Made by a program: the position numbers and the translations under genes. The notes under the pieces were generated by a model that was given only the letters and a program-made list of their open reading frames with translations, ran no database searches and had not been told where the DNA came from. A stretch of 38,664 bases of DNA from Fidelibacterota bacterium (GTDB lineage Bacteria; Fidelibacterota; UBA8477): contig JAIPJQ010000008.1 in assembly GCA_021734065.1 (NCBI GenBank), positions 1 through 38,664 on the forward strand, read 5' to 3'. Of this stretch, positions 20,171 through 32,176 are shown in pieces. Position 1 is the stretch's first letter; each line of letters begins with the position of its first letter.

Positions 20171-21186
20171 TGGCGGCATCGGGTTCCCAGCAGTTGAAGC
20201 GTTCGCGCACAGCAATCTTCATTTTATCAGCCATCGTTCGATTCTTAATCCTTGCCTTTGTTTTCGTAACACCGTCAATGGCAAAGCCTGTCCAAGTCAG
20301 CGTGAACCTGGATACAACCGATGGAACGCTGGGGGATGTATTTCAGGCAAACTGGCAGGTCAGCCATTCTCAAGATGAGAAGATCGTGTTTCCTCCATTG
20401 GAGGAGCGGATTGGAACATTTGAAATCCTGGATCAGCAGCGTACATCGTTGGAGGAGTATATCGTTTCATGGCAGTTGGCGGTGGCCGTATATGACTCGG
20501 TGGGGCCACACGATTTCCCGGACCTGACGGCTGCAATTATTTCCGGGGGTGACACTAATGCGATCAAGCTACCGGGATTTCAGGTGGAGATCCATTCCAT
20601 TCTTACGGCGGCCGACTCCACTTTTCGCCCGATTAAGCCCATTCATTCAGTGCGTTTGCCTTTCAACTGGTGGTACGTGGTATATGGGGTGTTGGCTATT
20701 ACTGTCATCTATCTGATTTACCGTTTTTGGCCACGACGGCGGGGAGGGAAGAGACAGCCCCGGGAAAAAGTAATCATTATTCCACCAGAGGAGGCTCATG
20801 TTGTTGCGTTGCGTGAGCTAAAAGCATTGGAAGGCTCGGGATACCTGGAGCAGGGCGCATTCAAGATATTTTACTCAGAACTGACGGCGATTCTGCGGAA
20901 GTATTTCGAAAACCGGTTCTTAATTGATGCGCTTGAAATGACCACGACAGAAGTTCTGCAGGCACTGAGAGCCGATATTTTAACACCTGATGAGTTCCGA
21001 GACGCAGAAGCGATATTGGAACAGGGGGATCTGGTCAAATTTGCGAAATTTATCCCCACATCCTCGGAAACTAAAAAGGCGTTAAACCTGGCTTTTGAGT
21101 TGGTGGAGGAGACCAGAATTCAATCAAAAACAACCAGACAAAATTCTGAGAAAACACAGCAAGCAGAAGTGGAGGACATATCGTGA
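20170..21186 (+). CDS. Membrane protein resembling DUF4381/BatD-type components
   Basis: A 338-residue protein with an N-terminal signal or membrane segment (about 14-37), a beta-rich extracytoplasmic domain (about 40-160), a second membrane segment (about 167-186, followed by WPRRRGG) and a cytoplasmic helical domain. In the latter, FKIFYSELTAILRKYFENRF and MTTTEVLQAL resemble the C-terminal region of DUF4381 and BatD-like proteins that accompany MoxR and DUF58. The assignment rests on layout, motif and position, not on a search. It overlaps the DUF58 gene upstream and the gldA-like gene downstream by 4 bp (GTGA). The expected vWA membrane proteins (BatA/BatB) are absent. Confidence 0.72.
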   Translation: MAASGSQQLKRSRTAIFILSAIVRFLILAFVFVTPSMAKPVQVSVNLDTTDGTLGDVFQANWQVSHSQDEKIVFPPLEERIGTFEILDQQRTSLEEYIVSWQLAVAVYDSVGPHDFPDLTAAIISGGDTNAIKLPGFQVEIHSILTAADSTFRPIKPIHSVRLPFNWWYVVYGVLAITVIYLIYRFWPRRRGGKRQPREKVIIIPPEEAHVVALRELKALEGSGYLEQGAFKIFYSELTAILRKYFENRFLIDALEMTTTEVLQALRADILTPDEFRDAEAILEQGDLVKFAKFIPTSSETKKALNLAFELVEETRIQSKTTRQNSEKTQQAEVEDIS

Positions 21187-22127
21187 TTGAAGTCCAAAAT
21201 GTAAGTAAATCCTATGGACCGGTCCACGCGGTCAGGGATATCTCCTTCTCTGTGAAGAGAGGGGAAATCCTGGGCTTCCTGGGACCGAATGGCGCAGGCA
21301 AAACCACCACAATGCGTATTCTGTCCTGTTTCATGCCGGCCACCGCCGGAACGGCCCGGGTTGCCGGATATGATGTATTTAATGAAGCAATGGAAGTAAA
21401 AAAACGCATTGGATATTTACCGGAAAATCCACCGTTGTATCTGGAACAGACCGTGGATGACTTCCTGCGTTTTGTTGCAGGCATCAAAGGTGTCCCAAGC
21501 CAGGATGTGAAGTCCAAAATAGATCGTGCGTTAACGCTCACTTCAACTATGGATGTGCGTCATCGGATTATCGGGAAACTTTCCAAGGGATTCCGTCAGC
21601 GGATTGGGTTGGCGCAGGCGCTGATTCATGAACCGGAAATTCTGATCCTGGACGAACCAACGGTGGGACTTGATCCGGCCCAGATCATTGAGGTGCGGGA
21701 GTTGATAAAGGGTCTTGCCGGTGATCATACCATCATTTTGTCCACCCACATTTTGCCGGAGGTGGAACAGACCTGTGATCGCGTGGTCATCATTAATAAG
21801 GGACAGGTTGTCGCAGAGGATACCACCACCGGTTTGACCCGGAAGCTACAGGGAGCCGCTTCCACTGTGAAGTTAGAGGCAGAAGGAGAGCCGGAAGCCG
21901 TTAAAGCAGTTCTACAATCCGTTGAGGGTGTGGCCAATGTCACCCATACCGCCGGGGCTTATATGATCGAATCCACCGCCGACCATGACATTCGTAGTGA
22001 CTTGGCTAAAGCCATTGTAAAAAAAGACTTTAAATTATTTGGCCTGCAGCGTGTGGGCATGAATCTGGAAGAGATTTTCCTCCAGTTGGTGAAGTCTGAA
22101 AATGGCGCAGGGAGGAATGAAGCATGA
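21183..22127 (+). CDS. gldA: GldA-like ABC transporter ATP-binding protein
   Basis: ATPase of an ABC-2 type system like GldA of Bacteroidota, which is associated with gliding; homologues occur in many non-gliding bacteria. The 314-residue product has Walker A GPNGAGKT (34-41), signature LSKGF (133-137), Walker B ILILDE (153-158) with EPTVGLDP, and a H-loop in STHILPEVE. About 100 C-terminal residues form a further domain, as in NosF/GldA-type ATPases. The start is GTG with GGAGG about a dozen bases upstream, overlapping the previous stop. The permease gene starts within its last codons (ATGA overlap). Confidence 0.9.
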   Translation: MIEVQNVSKSYGPVHAVRDISFSVKRGEILGFLGPNGAGKTTTMRILSCFMPATAGTARVAGYDVFNEAMEVKKRIGYLPENPPLYLEQTVDDFLRFVAGIKGVPSQDVKSKIDRALTLTSTMDVRHRIIGKLSKGFRQRIGLAQALIHEPEILILDEPTVGLDPAQIIEVRELIKGLAGDHTIILSTHILPEVEQTCDRVVIINKGQVVAEDTTTGLTRKLQGAASTVKLEAEGEPEAVKAVLQSVEGVANVTHTAGAYMIESTADHDIRSDLAKAIVKKDFKLFGLQRVGMNLEEIFLQLVKSENGAGRNEA

Positions 22128-22906
22128 AAAATACATGGACCATCTTTCGTCGTGAACTGAATGCCTATTTCGTATCACCTATGGCCTATGTGGTTTTGGT
22201 GTTTTTCTTTGCCCTGGCATCGGTTTTCTTTTACCTCTTTCTGGCCTCTTTCCTCCAGAACCAGCAATTGATTCAGATGCAGGCTCAGCAGGGCGGCCGG
22301 TTTCAACCGGTGAATGTGAACCTCATGTTGATCCGCGGTCTGCTGCTGAATTTATCGGTCATTTCCCTTTTTATGATTCCCATGATCACCATGCGTTCGT
22401 TCTCGGAGGATAAGCACAACGGGACCATGGAACTATTGCTCACATCACCGCTAACCAACTGGCAGATCATTCTGGGTAAATATTTTGCTGCACTTACCCT
22501 TTACGCCACCATGATTGGCACAACGCTGCTATTTATGGTGTTGTTGTTCTTCTACGGTGATCCGGAATTTTTACCCATCCTCAGTGGATACATCGGGTTG
22601 CTCTTATTTGGAGCCGCGCTGGTTGGTATTGGGATGTTCATCAGCAGTCTCACCGAAAATCAACTGGTGTCGGCGCTGGTGACCTTTGTGGTTATGCTGT
22701 TTCTCTGGTTGGTGGGTGCATTGGGAAGCTTTAACAGTACCAACTGGTCTCAGCAGCTCCTCCAATACCTTTCCACCATCGAACATCTGGATGATTTCGT
22801 AAAGGGTGTATTTGATACCAGACATTTGGTGTACTATCTGTCCACTGCATTTCTGGGACTCTTTTTGACCTATCAATCGGTTGAATCAACACGGTGGAGG
22901 GGTTAA
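22124..22906 (+). CDS. gldF: GldF-like ABC-2 type permease
   Basis: Inner-membrane permease partner of the preceding ATPase. The 260-residue product has about six hydrophobic segments, beginning with one near residues 20-45 after the short amphipathic start TWTIFRRELNAYFVSP. The cytoplasmic sequence TMRSFSEDKHNGTMELLLTSPLTNWQIILGKY is the conserved ABC-2 permease element that contacts the ATPase. The transported substrate is unknown. The start overlaps the gldA stop, and the stop lies 2 bp before the next gene, whose ribosome binding site is inside this gene's final codons. Confidence 0.9.
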   Translation: MKNTWTIFRRELNAYFVSPMAYVVLVFFFALASVFFYLFLASFLQNQQLIQMQAQQGGRFQPVNVNLMLIRGLLLNLSVISLFMIPMITMRSFSEDKHNGTMELLLTSPLTNWQIILGKYFAALTLYATMIGTTLLFMVLLFFYGDPEFLPILSGYIGLLLFGAALVGIGMFISSLTENQLVSALVTFVVMLFLWLVGALGSFNSTNWSQQLLQYLSTIEHLDDFVKGVFDTRHLVYYLSTAFLGLFLTYQSVESTRWRG

Positions 22907-22908
22907 TC

Positions 22909-24447
22909 ATGCAGAAGTTATGGAAAATCTTACTGTGGGTTGGTATCATCGGCATTGTCGCCGGCCTGGTTCTATATAGTGTTGTTGGTTTGTGGCGCTG
23001 GTATTCTGTTACAACCGAAATCGTTGGCTTGATGCTGGTTTTGGGCACCGTAATCATGAATTTCAGGATCGTGGTTCAGGCTTTGGGACGGCGATCCACC
23101 AAATATGGCATCAGCATGGTGATTGGTGGTCTGTTTGTCCTGGGCATTCTGGCTGCGGTGAATTTTTTCTTCTACCGGAATAACTACCGGTCGGATTGGA
23201 CGCAGCAGAAGACATTCTCCCTGTCAGATCAAACAACCAAAATTCTCCGGAATCTTGAAAAAGATGTGCAAGTGTACGCATTTTGGAATGATAATGACAA
23301 TGCGCGCAATCAAATCAATGAGCTCTTCATTGAGTACAACAATATCTCGCCCAGATTCCACTATGAATTTCTGGATGTGGATAAAAATGCGGATATCGCC
23401 CAGCAGGTGTACGCAATCGAGCAGTATGGGACGATTGTTTTCAAAACCGAAACCAAAGAGGAACGCTGGGAGCCTGCGCCTCAGTTTGGTGGCGCGCGTC
23501 CGCCTCAGGAAGAAGATATCACCAATACGCTGATCAAGGTTTTGCGGGATGAGCAAAAAACGGTTTATTTCATCAGTGGCCATGGTGAGGTTGACCTGGA
23601 TGATGCCCAGTCCCGGGATGGTTATGGCACAGCGAAAGCCGCGTTGGAGAAACAATTCTACAGAGTTGCCACTTTGGATTTGATGTCCTCGGACAGGGTC
23701 CCCGGGGATGCATCGGCAGTGGTAATCGCCGGTGCGGATAAGCCTTACCTGCAACATGAGCTCACGGCATTAACAACCTACCTGAAGCAGGGCGGCGGTG
23801 TGGCGGTACTGCTGGATCCCTCACCGAAACCGGATTTCAGGGAATTCCTGTCACCCTTCGGAATTGCACCGGATAATGACATTGTGGTTGATCCGTCGTT
23901 GGAAAATCGCTTGTTCGGAGGAAATCCGGGCACACCCCTGGTGCGTCAATATGGTGAACACAAGATTACCAAAGATTTTCCCTATGCCACCATTTTTCAC
24001 ATGACCCGTTCCTTACAGATAAGTGGTGAAGTAGGAGCTCTGGCGATTTCAGGTGGCAGTGCGTGGGGTGAGACCGATTTGTCCAACTTACAGCAGGGTG
24101 TTTCTTTTGGGGAGAGTGATATCCAGGGACCGTTGAATATCGCTGCCGTCACCAGCGTCCCCAGTGATTCGGTGAATGGCAAACCAGGTCGGCTGGTGGT
24201 CATAGGCGACTCAGATTTCGCCAACAACATCCAGTTCAACACGCAGGGGAACGGGAATTTCTTTACCAATATCGTTTCCTGGCTGGCGCAGGATGATGAT
24301 CTCATTTCGGTATCGCCCAAACAGATGGAAAATCGTCCGTTGAACATGACGGCCGGTGATCTGCGGATTGTCCTGTATGTCATCATCCTGTTCGGACTGT
24401 TGATCATTGGGCAGGGTCTGCGTGTCTATCTCAAACGACGGAGGTAA
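22909..24447 (+). CDS. gldG: GldG-like protein (ABC-type auxiliary membrane component)
   Basis: Auxiliary membrane protein with a large extracytoplasmic domain, as in GldG and related proteins of uncharacterized ABC transport systems. The 512-residue product has three N-terminal membrane segments (about 5-27, 37-57, 69-90), a long soluble domain with KTFSLSDQTTKILRNL near its start and YFISGHGEVDLDD and GGVAVLLDPSPKP in the Rossmann-like part, and one C-terminal membrane segment (about 484-505). A GTG at 22894 is in frame, but the ATG at 22909 directly follows GGAGGGG at ideal spacing and gives the natural N-terminus, so it is preferred. It is followed after 6 bp by the DUF4340 gene. Confidence 0.9.
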   Translation: MQKLWKILLWVGIIGIVAGLVLYSVVGLWRWYSVTTEIVGLMLVLGTVIMNFRIVVQALGRRSTKYGISMVIGGLFVLGILAAVNFFFYRNNYRSDWTQQKTFSLSDQTTKILRNLEKDVQVYAFWNDNDNARNQINELFIEYNNISPRFHYEFLDVDKNADIAQQVYAIEQYGTIVFKTETKEERWEPAPQFGGARPPQEEDITNTLIKVLRDEQKTVYFISGHGEVDLDDAQSRDGYGTAKAALEKQFYRVATLDLMSSDRVPGDASAVVIAGADKPYLQHELTALTTYLKQGGGVAVLLDPSPKPDFREFLSPFGIAPDNDIVVDPSLENRLFGGNPGTPLVRQYGEHKITKDFPYATIFHMTRSLQISGEVGALAISGGSAWGETDLSNLQQGVSFGESDIQGPLNIAAVTSVPSDSVNGKPGRLVVIGDSDFANNIQFNTQGNGNFFTNIVSWLAQDDDLISVSPKQMENRPLNMTAGDLRIVLYVIILFGLLIIGQGLRVYLKRRR

Positions 24448-24453
24448 TCGCGT

Positions 24454-25791
24454 ATGAAACCGAAGCAGTTAGCCATTTTATTTGTAGCGTTCGTTGTCGT
24501 CGCCGGGTTTGTCTATTTCTACGAATACAAAGGTGGACTGGAACGGGAAGCAGCGGCGGAATGGGCGAGCAAGACCTTTAAAATCTCTGGTCCGGAAGAG
24601 ATCGTGGGGCTGACCCTGCAGACGGAGCAGGGTGAGGTTTCAGCAGTCCGTGACCAGGGGGGCTGGCAAATAGTCACTCCATTTCGCGTGAATGCTGAAG
24701 ATGGTCAATGGAACGGGATTGTGAATGAAATAACCCAATCAACCATTGATCGTGTAATCACCACGGAGCTTACGGATTTGAGCACATTCGGCCTGAACAC
24801 ACCCCGCGCCACCGTGACACTGACCATGATGGATAATACGGAAAAGACATTCCTGATTGGTGCGGAGAGCAAAGCCAGTAAGGACGGCACCAAGACATTT
24901 GTAAAATGGGCTGACTCCAGTCGCGTGGTGACCACCGATAATGCCTTATTCACCCAATTGGATAAGTCACTCTTTGAACTGCGTGATAAAACTATTTTTC
25001 AAATTGAAGAGCCCCGGGTGTCCAAAATCGTTTTGGAGGATATGGAGCGGAAAGTGGTCTTAGAAAAACTGGCAAACCGCTGGATGATTACAGGTCCTAT
25101 TCATATGGTGGCCGTGCCAAATGCAGTGAACAGTTTGATCTCAGGGTTAACCGGTTTAAAGGCACGTGATTTTGTAGAAGAAAATCCACAGTCGTTAAAA
25201 CCCTATGGATTAGAAAAACCAGTGGGACGGGCTCAATTTGTTTATGATGACAGCACCACAAGTCTGGAGATACGGTTAGGGAATAAACGCTCTGCTAATG
25301 AAATGTATGTACATTGGTTGGGCGATCATCCTGTAGCCATTATTGACACAACCCAGGCAAAGCAGTTTGTGCGAACGGCTTTCGATTTTCAGGATAAAAA
25401 GCTGAAACCATTTGATGTGAAACTGGCGGATCACCTCACCATATCCGGTGATATGGCGTTGGACATTATCAAACGCGATACGCTGGGTTGGTTTAGCGAG
25501 GCAGGTGATACGCTCAGTACAAGTAAAGTGGAAAGTCTGTTGCGCAGCCTGAGTTCTATTCAGGCTGATGCGGTGGGTGAATATTATGCTGAGAATCTGG
25601 CGTTGTATGACTTGCACCAACCCCAAAGGACCATCACCGCATATATAGGTGACACGGTGTTATCGTCTATTTTGGTGGGAACGGAGTTTGAGAGCGAGAG
25701 TTTCGCCAAATGGGCTGAAAGTCCGCATGTTTATAAAGTGCGGAATTGGCGTATTCGCAATCTGGAAAAATCGGTTCATGATTTAAAATAG
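24454..25791 (+). CDS. DUF4340 domain-containing membrane-anchored protein
   Basis: A 445-residue protein with an N-terminal membrane anchor (about residues 5-24) and a long extracytoplasmic beta-rich region with duplicated elements such as STFGLNTPRATVTLTM and LKPYGLEKPVGRAQFVY. The pattern of 'GL..P...' followed by a strand and 'IGAES/LGNKR' is typical of DUF4340 proteins, which commonly lie next to GldG-like genes. The role is unknown; it probably acts in the periplasm with the ABC system. GGAGG at 24440-24444 sits 9 bp before the ATG. It is the last gene of the cluster, followed by a terminator. Confidence 0.87.
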   Translation: MKPKQLAILFVAFVVVAGFVYFYEYKGGLEREAAAEWASKTFKISGPEEIVGLTLQTEQGEVSAVRDQGGWQIVTPFRVNAEDGQWNGIVNEITQSTIDRVITTELTDLSTFGLNTPRATVTLTMMDNTEKTFLIGAESKASKDGTKTFVKWADSSRVVTTDNALFTQLDKSLFELRDKTIFQIEEPRVSKIVLEDMERKVVLEKLANRWMITGPIHMVAVPNAVNSLISGLTGLKARDFVEENPQSLKPYGLEKPVGRAQFVYDDSTTSLEIRLGNKRSANEMYVHWLGDHPVAIIDTTQAKQFVRTAFDFQDKKLKPFDVKLADHLTISGDMALDIIKRDTLGWFSEAGDTLSTSKVESLLRSLSSIQADAVGEYYAENLALYDLHQPQRTITAYIGDTVLSSILVGTEFESESFAKWAESPHVYKVRNWRIRNLEKSVHDLK

Positions 25792-25997: not shown

Positions 25998-26351
25998 ATG
26001 GGATTTGAACCGTATAAACCCAAACGCGGTGGACGTGGAAAAGGTTTAGCAATTAGTTTTAGTCCGTCAGGTCGTATTGGTTTTAGTCGTGGTTTGTATG
26101 ATGCTCATTTGAGCAAAGCGAATCATGTGGAATTATTTTATGATCGGGCACGGAACAAAGTTGGAATTAAACCAGTCAAGCGAAATTCCACCAGCTCAAT
26201 CAAACTTCCGGCCGTTGGCGAGAAGAAACCCTGTGCCATTATGGGCAAAGGGTTTTACAAGGCATTCGGCCTCTCTTTTGACAAACTGAAACGGGTCTCG
26301 CCTGTTTACGACGAAGAGAAAAAAATGCTGATTGCTGACTTGAATAACTAA
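25998..26351 (+). CDS. Small basic protein of unknown function (117 aa)
   Basis: A 117-residue basic protein. It starts with a lysine/arginine/glycine-rich stretch (KPKRGGRGKG, 8-17), followed by two beta-rich halves: ISFSPSGRIGFSRGLYD with ELFYDRARNKVGIKPV, then a second half with CAIMGKGFYKAFGL and a closing strand VYDEEKKMLIADL. The pattern 'I..SG.I.FS.....' followed by 'V.L.YD...NK.GIKP' resembles a family of small hypothetical proteins that I recall from archaea and bacteria with an AbrB-like flavour; this is unverified. The ribosome binding site AAAGGAG is excellent. An AT-rich 160-bp leader precedes it and a terminator follows, so it is an independent unit. Confidence 0.85.
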   Translation: MGFEPYKPKRGGRGKGLAISFSPSGRIGFSRGLYDAHLSKANHVELFYDRARNKVGIKPVKRNSTSSIKLPAVGEKKPCAIMGKGFYKAFGLSFDKLKRVSPVYDEEKKMLIADLNN

Positions 26352-26431: not shown

Positions 26432-27205
26432 TTATTTCTTTGAAACGATTGTGGCCGAGGCCTGTGCGGTTGGAAAAATGATCATGTCGGCAATTTGAAC
26501 ATGGGGTGGACGCGTAGCCGCGTATAAAATGGCATCTGCAATATCCTCCGCAACCAGCGGTTCATAACCCTTATAAACATTTTTAGCACGCGCTGTGTCA
26601 CCTCTGAATCGCACATTGCTGAACTCCGTTTCTACCAACCCGGGTGAAATGGCCGTGACGCGCACTGGTGTATCAACCAGATCCATGCGGGTGCTTTTGG
26701 AAATGGCATTCACCGCATGCTTTGAACCACAGTATATACTTCCTCCCGGATAGGCTTCATGGCCGGCGATGGAGGAAATATTGATCACATGCCCACGCTG
26801 GCGTTCCACCATTCCCGGGACAATGGCTTGTGTGAGGTAGAGTATGCCCTTCACATTGACGTCTATCACGGTGTCGATGTCATCCGGTTCATTCTCCTGT
26901 GCTCTATTCACACCCAACGCCAAACCGGCATTATTCACCAGGATATCGATTTTCTTTAAGGGCTCAGGCAGGTTCGCCAGAACAGTTTGAATTGATTCCA
27001 GGCTGCTCACATCCATGGTTGCTGGATGGACTTGGACCGAAAATTCTTCCGTCAACTCCTGCGCCAGGGCTTGGAGACGATCCTGCCTGCGAGCTGTGAG
27101 AATGAGATGACAACCGGTGGCGGCAAATTGCCGGGCAGCTGCCTGACCGATTCCCGCACTGGCCCCGGTGATAAATACAACCTGATGGTTAATCGCATAT
27201 GCCAT
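26432..27205 (-). CDS. Short-chain dehydrogenase/reductase (SDR)
   Basis: Predicted NAD(P)-dependent oxidoreductase of the classical SDR family; the substrate is unknown. The 257-residue product has the cofactor motif TGASAGIG (13-20), NNAG (91-94), the structural/catalytic asparagine N118, and catalytic S145, Y158 and K162 (YCGSK). Arginines at the end of the second beta-strand (TARR) suggest NADP preference. It resembles YdfG-type 3-hydroxy acid dehydrogenases. The frame extends 54 codons upstream into the symporter gene; the ATG at 27205 is chosen because AAGGAAG precedes it and it gives a normal SDR N-terminus. It lies 13 bp downstream of the symporter and is probably the last gene of the minus-strand operon. 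Confidence 0.93.
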   Translation of the reverse strand: MAYAINHQVVFITGASAGIGQAAARQFAATGCHLILTARRQDRLQALAQELTEEFSVQVHPATMDVSSLESIQTVLANLPEPLKKIDILVNNAGLALGVNRAQENEPDDIDTVIDVNVKGILYLTQAIVPGMVERQRGHVINISSIAGHEAYPGGSIYCGSKHAVNAISKSTRMDLVDTPVRVTAISPGLVETEFSNVRFRGDTARAKNVYKGYEPLVAEDIADAILYAATRPPHVQIADMIIFPTAQASATIVSKK

Positions 27206-27218
27206 TAAAATCTTCCTT

Positions 27219-28616
27219 TCAATGATTCCGTAAAGATAACTCACTCTTCTTCCGATTGACCAAGCCCATTCCCCAGAGGAAAAGGCCGACCAACATACCC
27301 GGATAGAATGGCTCCAATCCCCAGTAATACTGCCAGGTGTCAATTTTTCCGAACCAATACCACACACCTGCCGAGAGTGGTCCCAGAATCATTCCCCACA
27401 GAATATACTGCTTTCCCACCCGTAATATGGGTACCAGGCTGGTAATAACCGGCAGCAGCAGTCCCGGCAGGATGAGGGTCCCCAGCGTGTACCAGAGATT
27501 CACCACGCTGGGCATAAATACAGCCATGACAAATGCCAGTCCCAGCGATAATCCCATGCCAATCTGGGTCAGGCGAACAGGGTTGTGGGAACCGAATCGT
27601 TTTAATCGTGCCAGAATGTCATATCCCAGCGTTTGGGCTGTAACCAGGGTTGTACTGTCCAGTGTTGACATGACTGTGGCGAAAATTCCCAGCAGAAATA
27701 ATCCCTGAATGCCGATGGGGAGGATGTGCGCTGATAGTTCCAAAAATGCCTGGGCGGGGTTGTCCAGGTCAGGTAACAGTGCCCGAGCCAGTAATCCGGT
27801 CCAGGTGGTGAGCAAATCAAACACAAACCAGCAAACAACGGCCAAAATAATGCCCTTTCGGGCGGTGCGATGATCCCGGGTTGCGTAAACCCGTTGGTGA
27901 AACCCCGGGTCCACCAGGGTCCACATGGCGATGAAAAACCACACCAGGATATAAGCAAATGAATGTCCGCCCGTTAATGACAGATGTTCAGGTGGAAGCA
28001 TGGCTTTTAGATGGGCGAAGGAACCCACCGTGTGCCAGCCGATAACAGCCATCGTCACAAATCCCAGGTACATGAGCAGGAATTGCAACATATCGGTGCG
28101 CACCACTGCGCCCAATCCACCACGGAGGATATAAAGTGTGGAAAAGACCAAACCTAAGATCATGGCCAGAATAAGGCCGAACCCGAAAAAGAATTGCAGC
28201 AGGAAGGCAACCGTTAAGAGGTAAGGTGCCGGAGATGCCAACAGAAAGACCCACAGCGCACCAATTTTTCCCGATGCCTCACCATAGTTCTGCCGTAACA
28301 ACCCGGGAATGGTTTCTGCCTGGGATAAGCGGGCGCGATGGGCCAGAAAAAACGCGAAGAAAAGACCAAACACATAGTAGGGTACACCAAAGATTATCCA
28401 GTTGGAAATGCCGTATGAGAAACTGAATTCACTCACCCCCAGAATGCCGCCATACCACGTGGAGACCAGTGTCATGACGAAGGCCGGCAGGGTCAGCCGC
28501 CGTCCCATGAGGATGTAATCGCCAATTTTCGTGTCGGATTTTTTCCAGAAACCCAATACCCAGATCAGGATGAAGTAGAAAACAATAATTGTGGTATCAA
28601 TGGGATGTAGCTTCAT
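27219..28616 (-). CDS. Sodium:solute symporter family protein (possible thiamine-related transporter)
   Basis: Multi-spanning inner-membrane protein of 465 residues with about thirteen hydrophobic segments, in the sodium:solute symporter (SSS/SLC5) family. Typical features are the N-terminal DTTIIVFYFILIWVLGFW, the SDTKIGDYILMGRR loop, YILRGGLGAVVRTDMLQF and FATVMSTLDSTTLVTAQTL, the last resembling the conserved Na2-site region of the family. The substrate cannot be read from the sequence. The gene lies 17 bp after thiamine pyrophosphokinase on the same strand, which makes thiamine or a precursor a reasonable guess, since SSS proteins have been linked with thiamine in other organisms. No TPP riboswitch supports this. 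The start ATG lacks a clear ribosome binding site. Confidence 0.88.
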   Translation of the reverse strand: MKLHPIDTTIIVFYFILIWVLGFWKKSDTKIGDYILMGRRLTLPAFVMTLVSTWYGGILGVSEFSFSYGISNWIIFGVPYYVFGLFFAFFLAHRARLSQAETIPGLLRQNYGEASGKIGALWVFLLASPAPYLLTVAFLLQFFFGFGLILAMILGLVFSTLYILRGGLGAVVRTDMLQFLLMYLGFVTMAVIGWHTVGSFAHLKAMLPPEHLSLTGGHSFAYILVWFFIAMWTLVDPGFHQRVYATRDHRTARKGIILAVVCWFVFDLLTTWTGLLARALLPDLDNPAQAFLELSAHILPIGIQGLFLLGIFATVMSTLDSTTLVTAQTLGYDILARLKRFGSHNPVRLTQIGMGLSLGLAFVMAVFMPSVVNLWYTLGTLILPGLLLPVITSLVPILRVGKQYILWGMILGPLSAGVWYWFGKIDTWQYYWGLEPFYPGMLVGLFLWGMGLVNRKKSELSLRNH

Positions 28617-28633
28617 AAAACGCTGGAATTAAA

Positions 28634-29260
28634 TCAGATCTCGTTCAAGATATGAATCGCGTAAAGCATACCGTCATTCAATTCGATGGTAACAGGTGGT
28701 TGGGAGACCCGGTTGGATTGTCCCAGTTGACTGGTTGGGCTCAGCCGTGTATTGGTAAGATTCCACTGCAGGCCGCTGGTTTTTCGGACAAATGCCTGCG
28801 GCCAGGGGACCAAACTGAGTGTGGCATTAACAGGCAGATCCAGAGAAATTCTGGTCACTACGCGTACAATCCGGGCATCCGCTCCTTCCAATTCAATGTT
28901 CCACGCCGGGTCTAATCGGGCGGCGATGTGCAGGTTGGTGAGTTCATGATCCACCCGGCCTCCCAATCCACCCAGGATGATGAGTTGTGAGATGGCTTTG
29001 GAAGAGCTGGAAATGGCTCCTAATGCCTTCTCGAAATCCGTGGTTTCCTGACTTTTGTCCCGCTCCACATGCCAGCTTTCAGGGATTGTATCTGTATTTA
29101 CCGAATCCAGGTCTCCGATGATCAAATCGGGCGTGATACGGGCATTCAAACATGCCATAGCGCCGCCGTCGGCTGCAATGACCTGATCTGCCTTCGCAGC
29201 GTGAAATTGTAAGCGCTCCGCCTGGGGTGATGGTCCGCCTAAAATGATGAGAATTCGCAT
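28634..29260 (-). CDS. thiN: Thiamine pyrophosphokinase
   Basis: Cytoplasmic enzyme that converts thiamine and ATP to thiamine pyrophosphate and AMP. The 208-residue product has the family motifs ADGGA (30-34), PDLIIGDLDS (44-53), QETTDFEKAL (71-80) and GGLGGRVDHELTNL (97-110), with the acidic metal- and ATP-binding residues intact. A C-terminal beta domain (about 130-208) ends in TIELNDGMLYAIHI, as in the thiamine-binding domain. It is the first gene of a minus-strand operon with the symporter and SDR and is divergent from the lipoprotein gene at 29357. No biosynthetic thi genes are nearby, consistent with salvage rather than synthesis at this locus. Confidence 0.95.
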   Translation of the reverse strand: MRILIILGGPSPQAERLQFHAAKADQVIAADGGAMACLNARITPDLIIGDLDSVNTDTIPESWHVERDKSQETTDFEKALGAISSSSKAISQLIILGGLGGRVDHELTNLHIAARLDPAWNIELEGADARIVRVVTRISLDLPVNATLSLVPWPQAFVRKTSGLQWNLTNTRLSPTSQLGQSNRVSQPPVTIELNDGMLYAIHILNEI

Positions 29261-30065: not shown

Positions 30066-30842
30066 ATGGCTAATCTGCAAAAAATATGGGTCTATAGCCT
30101 GATTATCACCCTGGGGGTGTGCTCTGTGGCATCCGCTCAGGATGCCGGGAGTGATGAATGGGGTGGTTGGTTCGAGGATTCTGAGTCGGTATCCAGCCCT
30201 GCGGATACCATGGAATCCAATGATACCTGGGGCGATTGGTCCACCGAGGATGCCGACACGCAGCAGACCGACACGCTCAGTGTGAATGCGGATGAGTTTT
30301 CAGACTGGGGGATCCAGAGCGGTGACTGGGGACTCGAACCGGAGCCGGAAGAGGAAGGCTTACCCACGACCACAATTTATAATCCCAATGCCCCGGTCGG
30401 GATGGGAATGGCCATTGAAATCAGTGCGGTTTCGCCCTTCTGGGTTTCCCGTAAAATGAAAACCTGGTATTCCTTCATGGATTGGCGGGTGGGTGTGCAA
30501 TTGCCTTTCAGTTATCAACTGCCGCTGTATGGGATGCGGGTTACCGCCAGCGCTGAGATCGCCAGTTTCAATTTCGAAAACACATTTCCTCAGGGGGGGC
30601 AGTTTGGCGGGATTTCCGTTTTAGCCTACGGGCGATTACTGTATCAGCAATTTTGTGTTGACGCGGGGTTTGGGCTGTTCGGAAAGACCGGAGGCGCGCT
30701 TTTTGGGGCGATGTATCGGTACCCACTCACGTCAAATCTATACCTGGGAGCAGGTGGTCGATCCGTCTGGGTGAATCAAATCGAGCCGCTGGGCAGTTCG
30801 GGCTGGGCGGATGTACAAATCCTTGCCGGATACAAATTTTAG
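30066..30842 (+). CDS. Predicted outer-membrane beta-barrel protein with acidic, tryptophan-rich N-terminal segment
   Basis: Exported protein of 258 residues, not assigned to a named family. The signal peptide (about 1-24) ends ASAQ. Residues 25-100 are highly acidic with spaced tryptophans (DEWGGW, DTWGDW, FSDWG, SGDWGLEPEPEEE). From about residue 110 onwards the sequence alternates hydrophobic and polar residues in likely membrane strands, with many Gly/Tyr/Trp/Phe residues, and it ends in ILAGYKF, a terminal aromatic as in outer-membrane barrels. The C-terminal 150 residues are clearly related to those of the next gene (VSPFWVSRKMKTWYS, FENTFPQGGQF). About eight strands are plausible. The next gene starts after 11 bp. 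Confidence 0.78.
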   Translation: MANLQKIWVYSLIITLGVCSVASAQDAGSDEWGGWFEDSESVSSPADTMESNDTWGDWSTEDADTQQTDTLSVNADEFSDWGIQSGDWGLEPEPEEEGLPTTTIYNPNAPVGMGMAIEISAVSPFWVSRKMKTWYSFMDWRVGVQLPFSYQLPLYGMRVTASAEIASFNFENTFPQGGQFGGISVLAYGRLLYQQFCVDAGFGLFGKTGGALFGAMYRYPLTSNLYLGAGGRSVWVNQIEPLGSSGWADVQILAGYKF

Positions 30843-30853
30843 GTAGGAATGGT

Positions 30854-32176
30854 GTGAGCGTACACCAACCAAAAGGTGGAATCAATCAACTCCCGCCACT
30901 CAGGTGGCTGCGGTTAATCATGGGGGTAGTTATTCTGGGGGTTTACCCGATGTGGGTAATAGGTGCAGAGAATGATGGAACCGGTACATGGTACGAGGAA
31001 GACACGCTCTATGTGTTTACAATACAAGTACCGGACAACCGGTTGTTAACCAGCATGAAACTTCAGGAAAATCAGGGCAATCGTTATGTCACCGTGGGGT
31101 CTCCCCGGATTCAGGTGATTCCGGCTGAGTTTATCGGGAAACAAATCATTTTCACCCGGTCTAAACCCCAGATTGATTCAGAAGTTGGTCAGCGGGCTCA
31201 TGTTCCGGATTTTCGATTGGCCTATTTTGAAGAGGGGCTGAGAACGGCCGGTTACGGACAAATAAGGCGCGTGCTGAAGCCAAGTACAGATGTGGATATA
31301 CAGATGATCTCCCAGAGTGCTTACCCGGTTTTTCCCACAGACACGGTTGAGACAGTATCGAGTGCCATTGAAGAAAAAGCGGATACTGCTGCGACTGTAA
31401 GATCTGATGAGACGGTAACGGTTGACTCTGCAGCTTCATCTGAAATTGAATCTAAAAACTCAGCGGTTGAAAAACCGGTTATTTCCCAAGCAGAAAGTCC
31501 AACTGCGGAGCCTGTACAAGAAACCACTTCAACGGATTCCGCTGCACTTATACCGCAAAAAAACATGAAACCAGCGGTGGTGAAAGAAGAGATGCAGCAT
31601 GTTTCAAAGCAACCCTCACAGCCGAAACAGCAGAACCGACCGCCAGTGAATTCAGGCAAACAGCCGCAGACTAAGCGCCAGCCGTCACCCAAAGCACCCT
31701 CCAAGGCGCCCTGGGGGACGATTTTCAATCAGGGGATTTTGAATGGCCTGGCGCTGGAGATGAGTGTTGCTTCGCCGTACTGGGTATCCGAAAATCTCAA
31801 CACCTGGTATTCTTCCATTGACTGGCGATTTTCTTTCACCATGCCGTTTTACTACCGAGCAGGATCGGTGATGGTGGGGGCAAGCTTTGAGTGGTCCAGC
31901 TATGATTTCGAGAATACATTCCCCGAAGGTGGCCGCTTCCAGGGGCAGGCTAAATTGGCGTATGTGAGTACATATTGGCGGGGATTGATTCTGGAACTGG
32001 GGGGAGGCAAATTCAGCGATACCACTGGTTTCATCGGTGGAATTTCGGGAAAAATTCTGGAAGGTGAGCACTTGTATCTGGGTGGGGGCATGCGGGGTGT
32101 GATCATTCAGGAGATACAATCCATCGGACAGGGGCACTGGGCTGACGGTCGGCTCACACTGGGGTACAAATTTTAA
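30854..32176 (+). CDS. Predicted outer-membrane protein: N-terminal domain, disordered linker and barrel domain paralogous to the upstream gene
   Basis: Exported protein of 440 residues. A hydrophobic signal (about 18-37, ending VIGAE) is followed by a beta-rich domain (about 38-150). A long low-complexity linker comes next, first Thr/Ala/Ser/Glu-rich (about 155-240), then Lys/Gln/Pro-rich (about 245-290). A C-terminal barrel-like domain of about 145 residues closes the protein. The last part is paralogous to the upstream protein (MSVASPYWVSENLNTWYSSIDWR and FENTFPEGGRF) and ends LTLGYKF. The start is GTG, supported by AGGTAGGA at 30841-30848. The linker resembles segments that span the periplasm or reach through peptidoglycan. 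Function is unknown; the neighbouring giant repeat gene suggests a cell-surface role. Confidence 0.76.
   Translation: MSVHQPKGGINQLPPLRWLRLIMGVVILGVYPMWVIGAENDGTGTWYEEDTLYVFTIQVPDNRLLTSMKLQENQGNRYVTVGSPRIQVIPAEFIGKQIIFTRSKPQIDSEVGQRAHVPDFRLAYFEEGLRTAGYGQIRRVLKPSTDVDIQMISQSAYPVFPTDTVETVSSAIEEKADTAATVRSDETVTVDSAASSEIESKNSAVEKPVISQAESPTAEPVQETTSTDSAALIPQKNMKPAVVKEEMQHVSKQPSQPKQQNRPPVNSGKQPQTKRQPSPKAPSKAPWGTIFNQGILNGLALEMSVASPYWVSENLNTWYSSIDWRFSFTMPFYYRAGSVMVGASFEWSSYDFENTFPEGGRFQGQAKLAYVSTYWRGLILELGGGKFSDTTGFIGGISGKILEGEHLYLGGGMRGVIIQEIQSIGQGHWADGRLTLGYKF

Follow-up and report, generated by a model that had tools for sequence, protein, structure and literature searches.

Which solute is carried by a sodium:solute symporter whose gene stands directly behind that of thiamine pyrophosphokinase (TPK, or thiamine diphosphokinase)? 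The gene pair lies in a stretch of 38,664 nucleotides (contig JAIPJQ010000008.1 of assembly GCA_021734065.1, a Fidelibacterota bacterium), here called the window, which is contig C117 of a 2.5 Mb metagenome-assembled genome (MAG) with a completeness of 82%. The closest named relatives of the symporter are 90% and 73% identical and come from records labeled Candidatus Neomarinimicrobiota and Candidatus Marinimicrobia. By far the best reading, and a highly probable one, is that this protein of the SSS family is a candidate Na+-coupled importer of thiamine (vitamin B1) in the inner membrane of a thiamine auxotroph. The observations behind it are the gene order and its conservation, riboswitch operons in relatives, thiamine biosynthesis genes that were not found, and the fold and sodium-site residues of the protein.

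A preliminary description of the window had placed the SSS gene 17 bp behind the TPK gene on the same strand. These coordinates were confirmed, the gap between the TPK stop and the symporter start being 28617-28633. The window TPK scores 132.6 bits against TIGR01378 (cut-off 76.4), 80.7 bits against PF04263 and 35.9 bits against PF04265, each over its cut-off, and thus exceeds the cut-offs of both the catalytic and the B1-binding domain models. It is the single PF04263 match in the whole genome, and the named solved structures that match it are mostly TPKs. The symporter matches PF00474 with 82.4 bits (cut-off 22.8) over residues 34-412.

The pairing was followed in 60 genomes, namely the window's own genome and 59 relatives. 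A symporter search at E ≤ 1e-10 yielded 124 matches, and those with E < 1e-80 were graded as orthologues. An orthologue is present in 51 of the 60 genomes, one in each, while the other 73 SSS matches are weaker; one of the latter (G014:C227) resembles the broken-off end of the orthologue of its genome. A TPK gene is located upstream, on the same strand and within 1.5 kb of the orthologue, in 49 of the 51 genomes, whereas none of the 73 weaker SSS matches adjoins one. The pairing of TPK and symporter is therefore far beyond chance. Of the two exceptions, G055 has a symporter that begins at base 27 of the contig; the other one is G057. TPK itself was detected in 55 genomes, and its presence agrees with that of the symporter in 56 of the 60: 51 have both and five have neither by our searches (G024, G042, G044, G047, and G056), four have TPK only (G027, G045, G051, and G054) and none has the symporter only (Fisher p = 2.3e-5, in a test that ignores relatedness). 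All 30 fetched loci (own genome and 29 relatives) contain a homologue of the window TPK beside the symporter. Among the loci with TPK only (L154, L155, and L157), L154 and L155 come from the genomes G045 and G027, respectively, both of about 1 Mb; here TPK is divergent from a receptor-sized gene, identified in L154 as a TonB receptor by Pfam.

The pair extends beyond the phylum. Among GTDB species genomes, 455 symporter relatives were confirmed by a scan, and the counts for GTDB loci given here cover the best 80 of these 455, including 20 contigs that, by their length, are already in the 60-genome set. In 77 of the 80 loci, TPK is located upstream and in the same orientation, and in 75 of these 77 it ends within 200 b of the symporter start or overlaps it (the distance in L103 is 482 b, that in L129 1190 b). 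In the three loci without TPK upstream, the sequence before the symporter frame measures 35 b (L099), 666 b (L104), and about 1.5 kb (L142). According to the depositors' own labels, the loci belong to Neomarinimicrobiota, Calditrichota, Ignavibacteria, Chlorobi, Balneolales, Acidobacteriota, KSB1, Chrysopegis, an FCB-group bacterium, and one Opitutaceae.

Table 1. Coordinates of the TPK-symporter gene run in the window.
Feature	Position	Strand	Description
Thiamine pyrophosphokinase (TPK / thiamine diphosphokinase)	28634..29260	-	208 aa; heads the gene run; TIGR01378, PF04263, and PF04265 over cut-off
SSS-family symporter, candidate inner-membrane Na+/thiamine symporter	27219..28616	-	465 aa; PF00474 over cut-off
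SDR oxidoreductase, probably a passenger	26432..27205	-	257 aa; PF00106; nearest NCBIfam model YdfG-like

A link to thiamine is also found in the regulation of the relatives' operons. The thiamine pyrophosphate (TPP) riboswitch family RF00059 matches 48 of the 60 genomes, 45 of them over the gathering score (stricter filters). In the window's own genome, the riboswitch is located at C7:21689-21802, just upstream of a gene for a TonB-dependent receptor and on another contig than the TPK-symporter pair. A receptor frame also follows 3' of the riboswitch on the same strand in all 16 further riboswitch regions, with positions compared by hand; the frame in G056, one of the 16, is apparently broken. 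Riboswitch, receptor, TPK, and symporter are contiguous in G023, G029, and G034, with profiles used to check the operon genes of the first and the last. In G057, by contrast, TPK sits on another contig while riboswitch, receptor, and symporter stand in a row, so that the tie of the symporter to the riboswitch is independent of TPK.

A covariance model was built from 28 of the 30 fetched relatives' riboswitches, leaving out that of the window's own genome, which scores 59.1 bits with this model. It revealed a riboswitch upstream on the symporter strand in 30 of the 80 GTDB loci, 28 of which have the full run of riboswitch, TonB receptor, TPK, and symporter; a receptor profile found no receptor between riboswitch and TPK in L114 and L137. 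Where TPK is present with more than 3.2 kb of sequence before it (57 loci), the full run occurs in 25. About 1 kb separates receptor and TPK in L108, and the riboswitch of L081 is on the opposite strand, away from the pair. Rfam's own model exceeds its gathering score in 27 of the 30 riboswitch loci (it misses L110, L137, and L140) and in 26 of the 28 full runs, and 14 of 14 loci negative by the relatives-only model are also TPP-negative by Rfam's model. A TPP riboswitch inside the window was rejected, as the lone match (E 0.075) is to a miRNA family and due to chance.

Some riboswitch regions have other neighbors. G044, G047, and G056 (L178, L179, and L180) keep a riboswitch-headed TonB receptor, with neither TPK nor symporter found; the receptor frame of L179 looks broken. 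A gene for an OPT-family transporter (PF03169 by Pfam) is located next to or near the riboswitch-headed receptor in three loci (L150:1426-3267, L156:1286-3127, and L185:9171-11042), and four others (L151, L186, L191, and L192) have a similar gene by resemblance alone. It is followed in several loci by an adenosine-deaminase-like gene, for which Pfam was run on that of L185 only. The OPT gene could be a second riboswitch-linked carrier or merely reflect an old gene order.

The cargo can be narrowed from the biosynthesis genes. TPK acts directly on finished thiamine, and hydroxymethylpyrimidine (HMP) or thiazole needs ThiE or ThiN to be joined into thiamine phosphate. The window's own genome, at its 82% completeness, has no match over cut-off to ThiC, ThiE, ThiN, PnuC/PnuT (PF04973), ThiT, or ThiB, and every family search gave matches in at least three of 14 control genomes. 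Likewise, 22 other genomes of the same order (63 to 95% complete) have no ThiC, ThiN, or ThiE over cut-off. Since ThiE and ThiN were not found and TPK uses thiamine directly, thiamine and not a precursor is the expected cargo. Across the 60 genomes, ThiC is present in three (G025, G031, and G035), full-length ThiE in three (G025, G028, and G035), and a clear ThiN match in one (G031). ThiE matches at E 0.001 occur in 17 genomes, of which G048 passes solely via summed fragments and 13 others have weak fragments. ThiT was found in none of the 60, ThiB gave three weak matches with no genome over cut-off, and PnuC/T is limited to short C-terminal matches in two (G037 and G048). The preliminary description had noted that PnuT, ThiT, and ThiBPQ are absent from the window; PnuT, ThiT, and ThiB were not found elsewhere in this genome either. 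A complete pathway with a dedicated importer elsewhere did not emerge from this partial check, which did not include YkoEDC, ThiXYZ, CytX, and ThiW.

Two further enzymes were also searched for. The four ThiL matches of the own genome were rejected as HypE, a cysteine desulfurase-SelD fusion, SelD, and PurM. ThiL matches occur in 52 of the 60 genomes, none over cut-off, with identities worked out for the own genome; the cut-off may miss divergent ThiL, as a 70-bit match in G028 stands in a thi operon. The two ThiG matches of the own genome were rejected as PdxS (499.6 bits) and a geranylgeranylglyceryl-phosphate-synthase-like protein (281.1 bits). ThiG is matched in 58 genomes and passes its cut-off in 56, every listed match being a fragment of at most 30.6 bits. 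The cysteine desulfurase-SelD fusion is encoded at L170:3-2072 (-) on contig C64, with a separate SelD elsewhere in the genome, and the geranylgeranylglyceryl-phosphate-synthase-like protein, over its NCBIfam cut-off, at L194:29-718 (+) on contig C16. In G031, thiamine synthesis genes occur alongside a kept TPK-symporter pair: a TPP riboswitch at L173 (G031:C23) is followed by a ThiD-ThiN fusion and Thi4 (Pfam), and ThiC is split over two frames.

An AlphaFold2 model from 45 family members (pLDDT 94.1, pTM 0.91) has helix breaks in transmembrane helix (TM) 1 (residues 53-57) and TM6 (residue 236), as in solved SSS transporters. The top 14 Foldseek rows are SGLT2, CHT1, SGLT1, and SiaT with a TM-score (query) of 0.75-0.84. 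PF00474 domain and fold together place the protein in the SSS / SLC5 (SSF) family; a point against this membership is the NCBIfam superfamily model TIGR00813, with 108.5 bits below a cut-off of 184. Identities as PanF or PutP were rejected because the NCBIfam equivalog cut-offs were missed (57.6 of 328 and 55.2 of 515.5 bits, respectively), as was PnuT / PnuC, since the symporter has no PF04973 match. The best solved-structure match of the family profile is a bacterial choline transporter (CHT; 88.6 bits).

The aromatic cage and sodium ligands of CHT1 were taken from the relevant parts of two papers (PMC11589582, PMC13220886), and their residue numbers agreed with the aligned rows. Sodium-ligand side chains in the window protein are S317 and T318 for Na2 and D175, D320, and S321 for Na3. 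Among the 45 members, position 317 is Ser in 44, 318 is Thr or Ser in 45, and 321 is Ser or Thr in 45, while Na3 is variable at 175 (Asp in 37, Asn in eight) and 320 (Asp in 30). Three of the six cage residues (W62, Y67, Y91, W141, W254, and W406) are kept, namely W62 as W54 (43/45), Y91 as Y80 (41/45), and W406 as W375 (44/45). The counterpart of W141 in TM3 is Ser, Thr, Leu, or Asn in all 45 sequences, and alanine at this CHT1 position abolishes choline transport (PMC11589582, as far as its mutant data were covered). Y67 aligns to a gap, and the counterpart of W254 in TM6 depends on the aligner (D236 by HMMER, W232 by MAFFT). D236, P237, F239, Q241, and R242 are invariant (45/45); an Asp stands at the corresponding place of SGLT1 in a printed alignment, so that D236 is not unique to this family.

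The passages on HMP/thiamin symporters in PMC11452348 give them an Asp in TM3 at SiaT position 139, and give ThiV a Tyr at SiaT 78 in TM2 and, in TM6, a Phe at SiaT 254 with a His or another polar residue behind it. SiaT 139 falls at window residues 132-133 (Tyr-Leu), as judged from match ranges, and between residues 114 and 146 an acidic residue occurs only in columns 116, 141, and 145, in one of the 45 members each. F239 is present in 45 members, H240 in 41, Y80 in 41, and Y81 in 44, in a provisional register to SiaT. As neither the ThiV aspartate nor the full choline cage was recovered, we class the protein as an SSS member with a proposed function and not as ThiV or CHT.

In the proposed system, thiamine would cross the outer membrane via the TonB-dependent receptor under TPP riboswitch control (contig C7 in the own genome). 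The SSS protein would then move it from the periplasm to the cytoplasm, probably driven by Na+, where the TPK of the same gene run would phosphorylate it to TPP and thereby trap the cofactor. TPP, acting via the riboswitch, would in turn lower the receptor. A wider proposal, drawn from sequence comparison and to our minds evenly balanced, is that a separate SSS subfamily with choline transporters as its nearest solved relatives may be the main inner-membrane B1 gate of several phyla and take the place of PnuT. Tied to TPK by its operon, it may have kept part of the cage (W54, Y80, and W375) for the positively charged thiazolium ring, with TM3 opened by a smaller residue in place of Trp for the larger two-ring vitamin and the invariant D236 in the TM6 break. 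Most Neomarinimicrobiota, with ThiC found in three of the 60 genomes searched, may then live on the thiamine of others.

Several observations weigh against a thiamine importer of an auxotroph. Single absences are weak in a MAG that is 82% complete. G025, G028, G031, and G035 have ThiC and/or a coupling enzyme yet keep the TPK-symporter pair, which is thus not limited to auxotrophs, and the four genomes with TPK only indicate that another carrier can serve TPK. The gene run in the window has no riboswitch at the Rfam threshold, the riboswitch on contig C7 reaches 53.8 bits and remains just below the Rfam gathering score of 54.3, and the 18 closest GTDB loci, which are those with the SDR gene, show no riboswitch beside the pair.

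The preliminary description had proposed an importer of thiamine or a precursor. The importer is supported by the orthologue context and the riboswitch operons, and of the two cargoes thiamine is favored. Import of HMP or thiazole is very unlikely: it would require ThiE or ThiN, not found here and clear in only three genomes and one genome of the 60, respectively, and the partner TPK acts on finished thiamine. Those four genomes that combine ThiC and/or a coupling enzyme with the pair would suit a precursor, as would ThiV, an SSS protein described as the likely HMP importer of SAR11, although the TM3 Asp of such symporters has no counterpart here (PMC11452348, ThiV passages).

Even less probable is an unrelated solute (amino acid, choline, or pantothenate), with an operon shared by history alone. 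The CHT match at 88.6 bits and the three kept cage residues point toward choline, but W141, which choline transport cannot lose to alanine (PMC11589582, same data), is replaced throughout the family, and the PanF and PutP models were missed by far. An unrelated cargo would also leave the conservation beside TPK over several phyla, against 0/73 for other SSS matches, and the G057 run without TPK to be explained. Least probable of all is the carriage of thiamine phosphates, or mainly the export of surplus thiamine. The riboswitch-headed receptors of G044, G047, and G056, with neither TPK nor symporter found, suggest that some lineage may get TPP otherwise; by reasoning, however, a cell that takes up TPP would have no need of TPK, an exporter would be of little use to one lacking thiamine synthesis, and the riboswitch runs join the symporter to a receptor, which is an uptake protein.

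The proposed thiamine symporter system would work like the tested OMthi-PnuT-Tnr3 system of Bacteroides thetaiotaomicron with a carrier from another family, as far as the description in PMC5613172 was covered. Both have a riboswitch, a TonB receptor, a carrier, and a thiamine-pyrophosphorylating enzyme in one or split operons, the separate contig of the own riboswitch and receptor resembling the split operons of Bacteroides, but the inner-membrane carrier is PnuT there and an SSS symporter here. One locus of this type is already known, Cabys_3975-3977 of Caldithrix abyssi, for which the authors report candidate thiamine transporters (PMC5317091, in the part on this locus). It was the only paper with such a locus found in the open-access literature, subscription journals being outside this scope. 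It concerns one genome, argues thiamine transport for the receptor, and does not survey the symporters as a family, and its symporter may belong to the present family; the Calditrichota-labeled L082 and L117 have the same riboswitch-receptor-TPK-symporter run. The multi-phylum conservation, the separation in G057, and the residue mapping are new here.

ThiV of SAR11 shares the SSS family, TPP-riboswitch control, thiamin-related uptake, and Phe then His in TM6, but it likely imports HMP in an organism unable to use thiamin, its TM3 Asp is missing here, and the ThiV passages mention no TPK pairing (PMC11452348). Elsewhere, in the portions covered, ThiV is listed among B1 transporters (PMC6593275) and thiV is called homologous to panF (PMC2211319). 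Dur31 of Candida is an SSF-domain protein whose thiamin carriage is shown by deletion and pyrithiamine resistance, with a TPP riboswitch in many orthologues (PMC5997356, in its Dur31 sections); unlike the present symporter it is fungal and Dur3-related, and the likeness is set by description. CHT1 and sfCHT (SLC5A7; PMC11589582, PMC13220886, again in part) have the same fold and are the best sequence-profile match in the PDB. CHT1 shares the TM1 Trp, TM2 Tyr, TM10 Trp, and TM6 Gln-Arg gate with the symporter and differs in the TM3 Trp, lost here, the TM6 Trp, without a clear match, and the gene context.

The short-chain dehydrogenase/reductase (SDR) gene, assigned earlier to the same operon, is indeed present 13 bp downstream of the symporter (27206-27218) but has no visible part in the thiamine system. 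Its start was taken to be the ATG at 27205; a longer frame in the open reading frame list (to 27367) overlaps the symporter. The protein reaches 250.4 of the 411 bits needed for the YdfG-like NCBIfam model. Among the 80 GTDB loci, 18 have a homologue directly behind the symporter and 54 have none, with eight too short to tell. It was rejected as a system part because it is confined to the loci of one lineage, and is probably a lineage-specific passenger.

Other genes of the window were noted in passing. A 117-aa protein (25998-26351, +) without Pfam or NCBIfam match is 97% and 84% identical in two genus mates, whereas the adjoining SDR is less conserved (82% and 72%). Two neighboring secreted-looking proteins (30066-30842 and 30854-32176, both +) resemble each other in their C-terminal parts, which by eye look like a barrel-like domain duplicated in tandem. 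An ABC ATPase, a permease, an auxiliary protein, and a DUF4340-like protein are encoded in a row at 21183-25791 (+), which we take to resemble a GldA/F/G cluster.

Microbial communities are shaped by how much vitamin B1 is available to them, and Neomarinimicrobiota, though hardly cultured, are common members of the sea and the subsurface. If the symporter is a thiamine importer, an inner-membrane B1 importer would be named for lineages in which PnuT, ThiT, and ThiB were not found, and a second architecture, besides that with PnuT, would exist for a riboswitch-receptor-carrier-kinase system. W54, Y80, D236, and W375 would then be the residues of interest for the function of the symporter. A family annotated merely as ‘sodium:solute symporter’ would be kept from misreading, and B1 dependence would become readable from genomes with more confidence.

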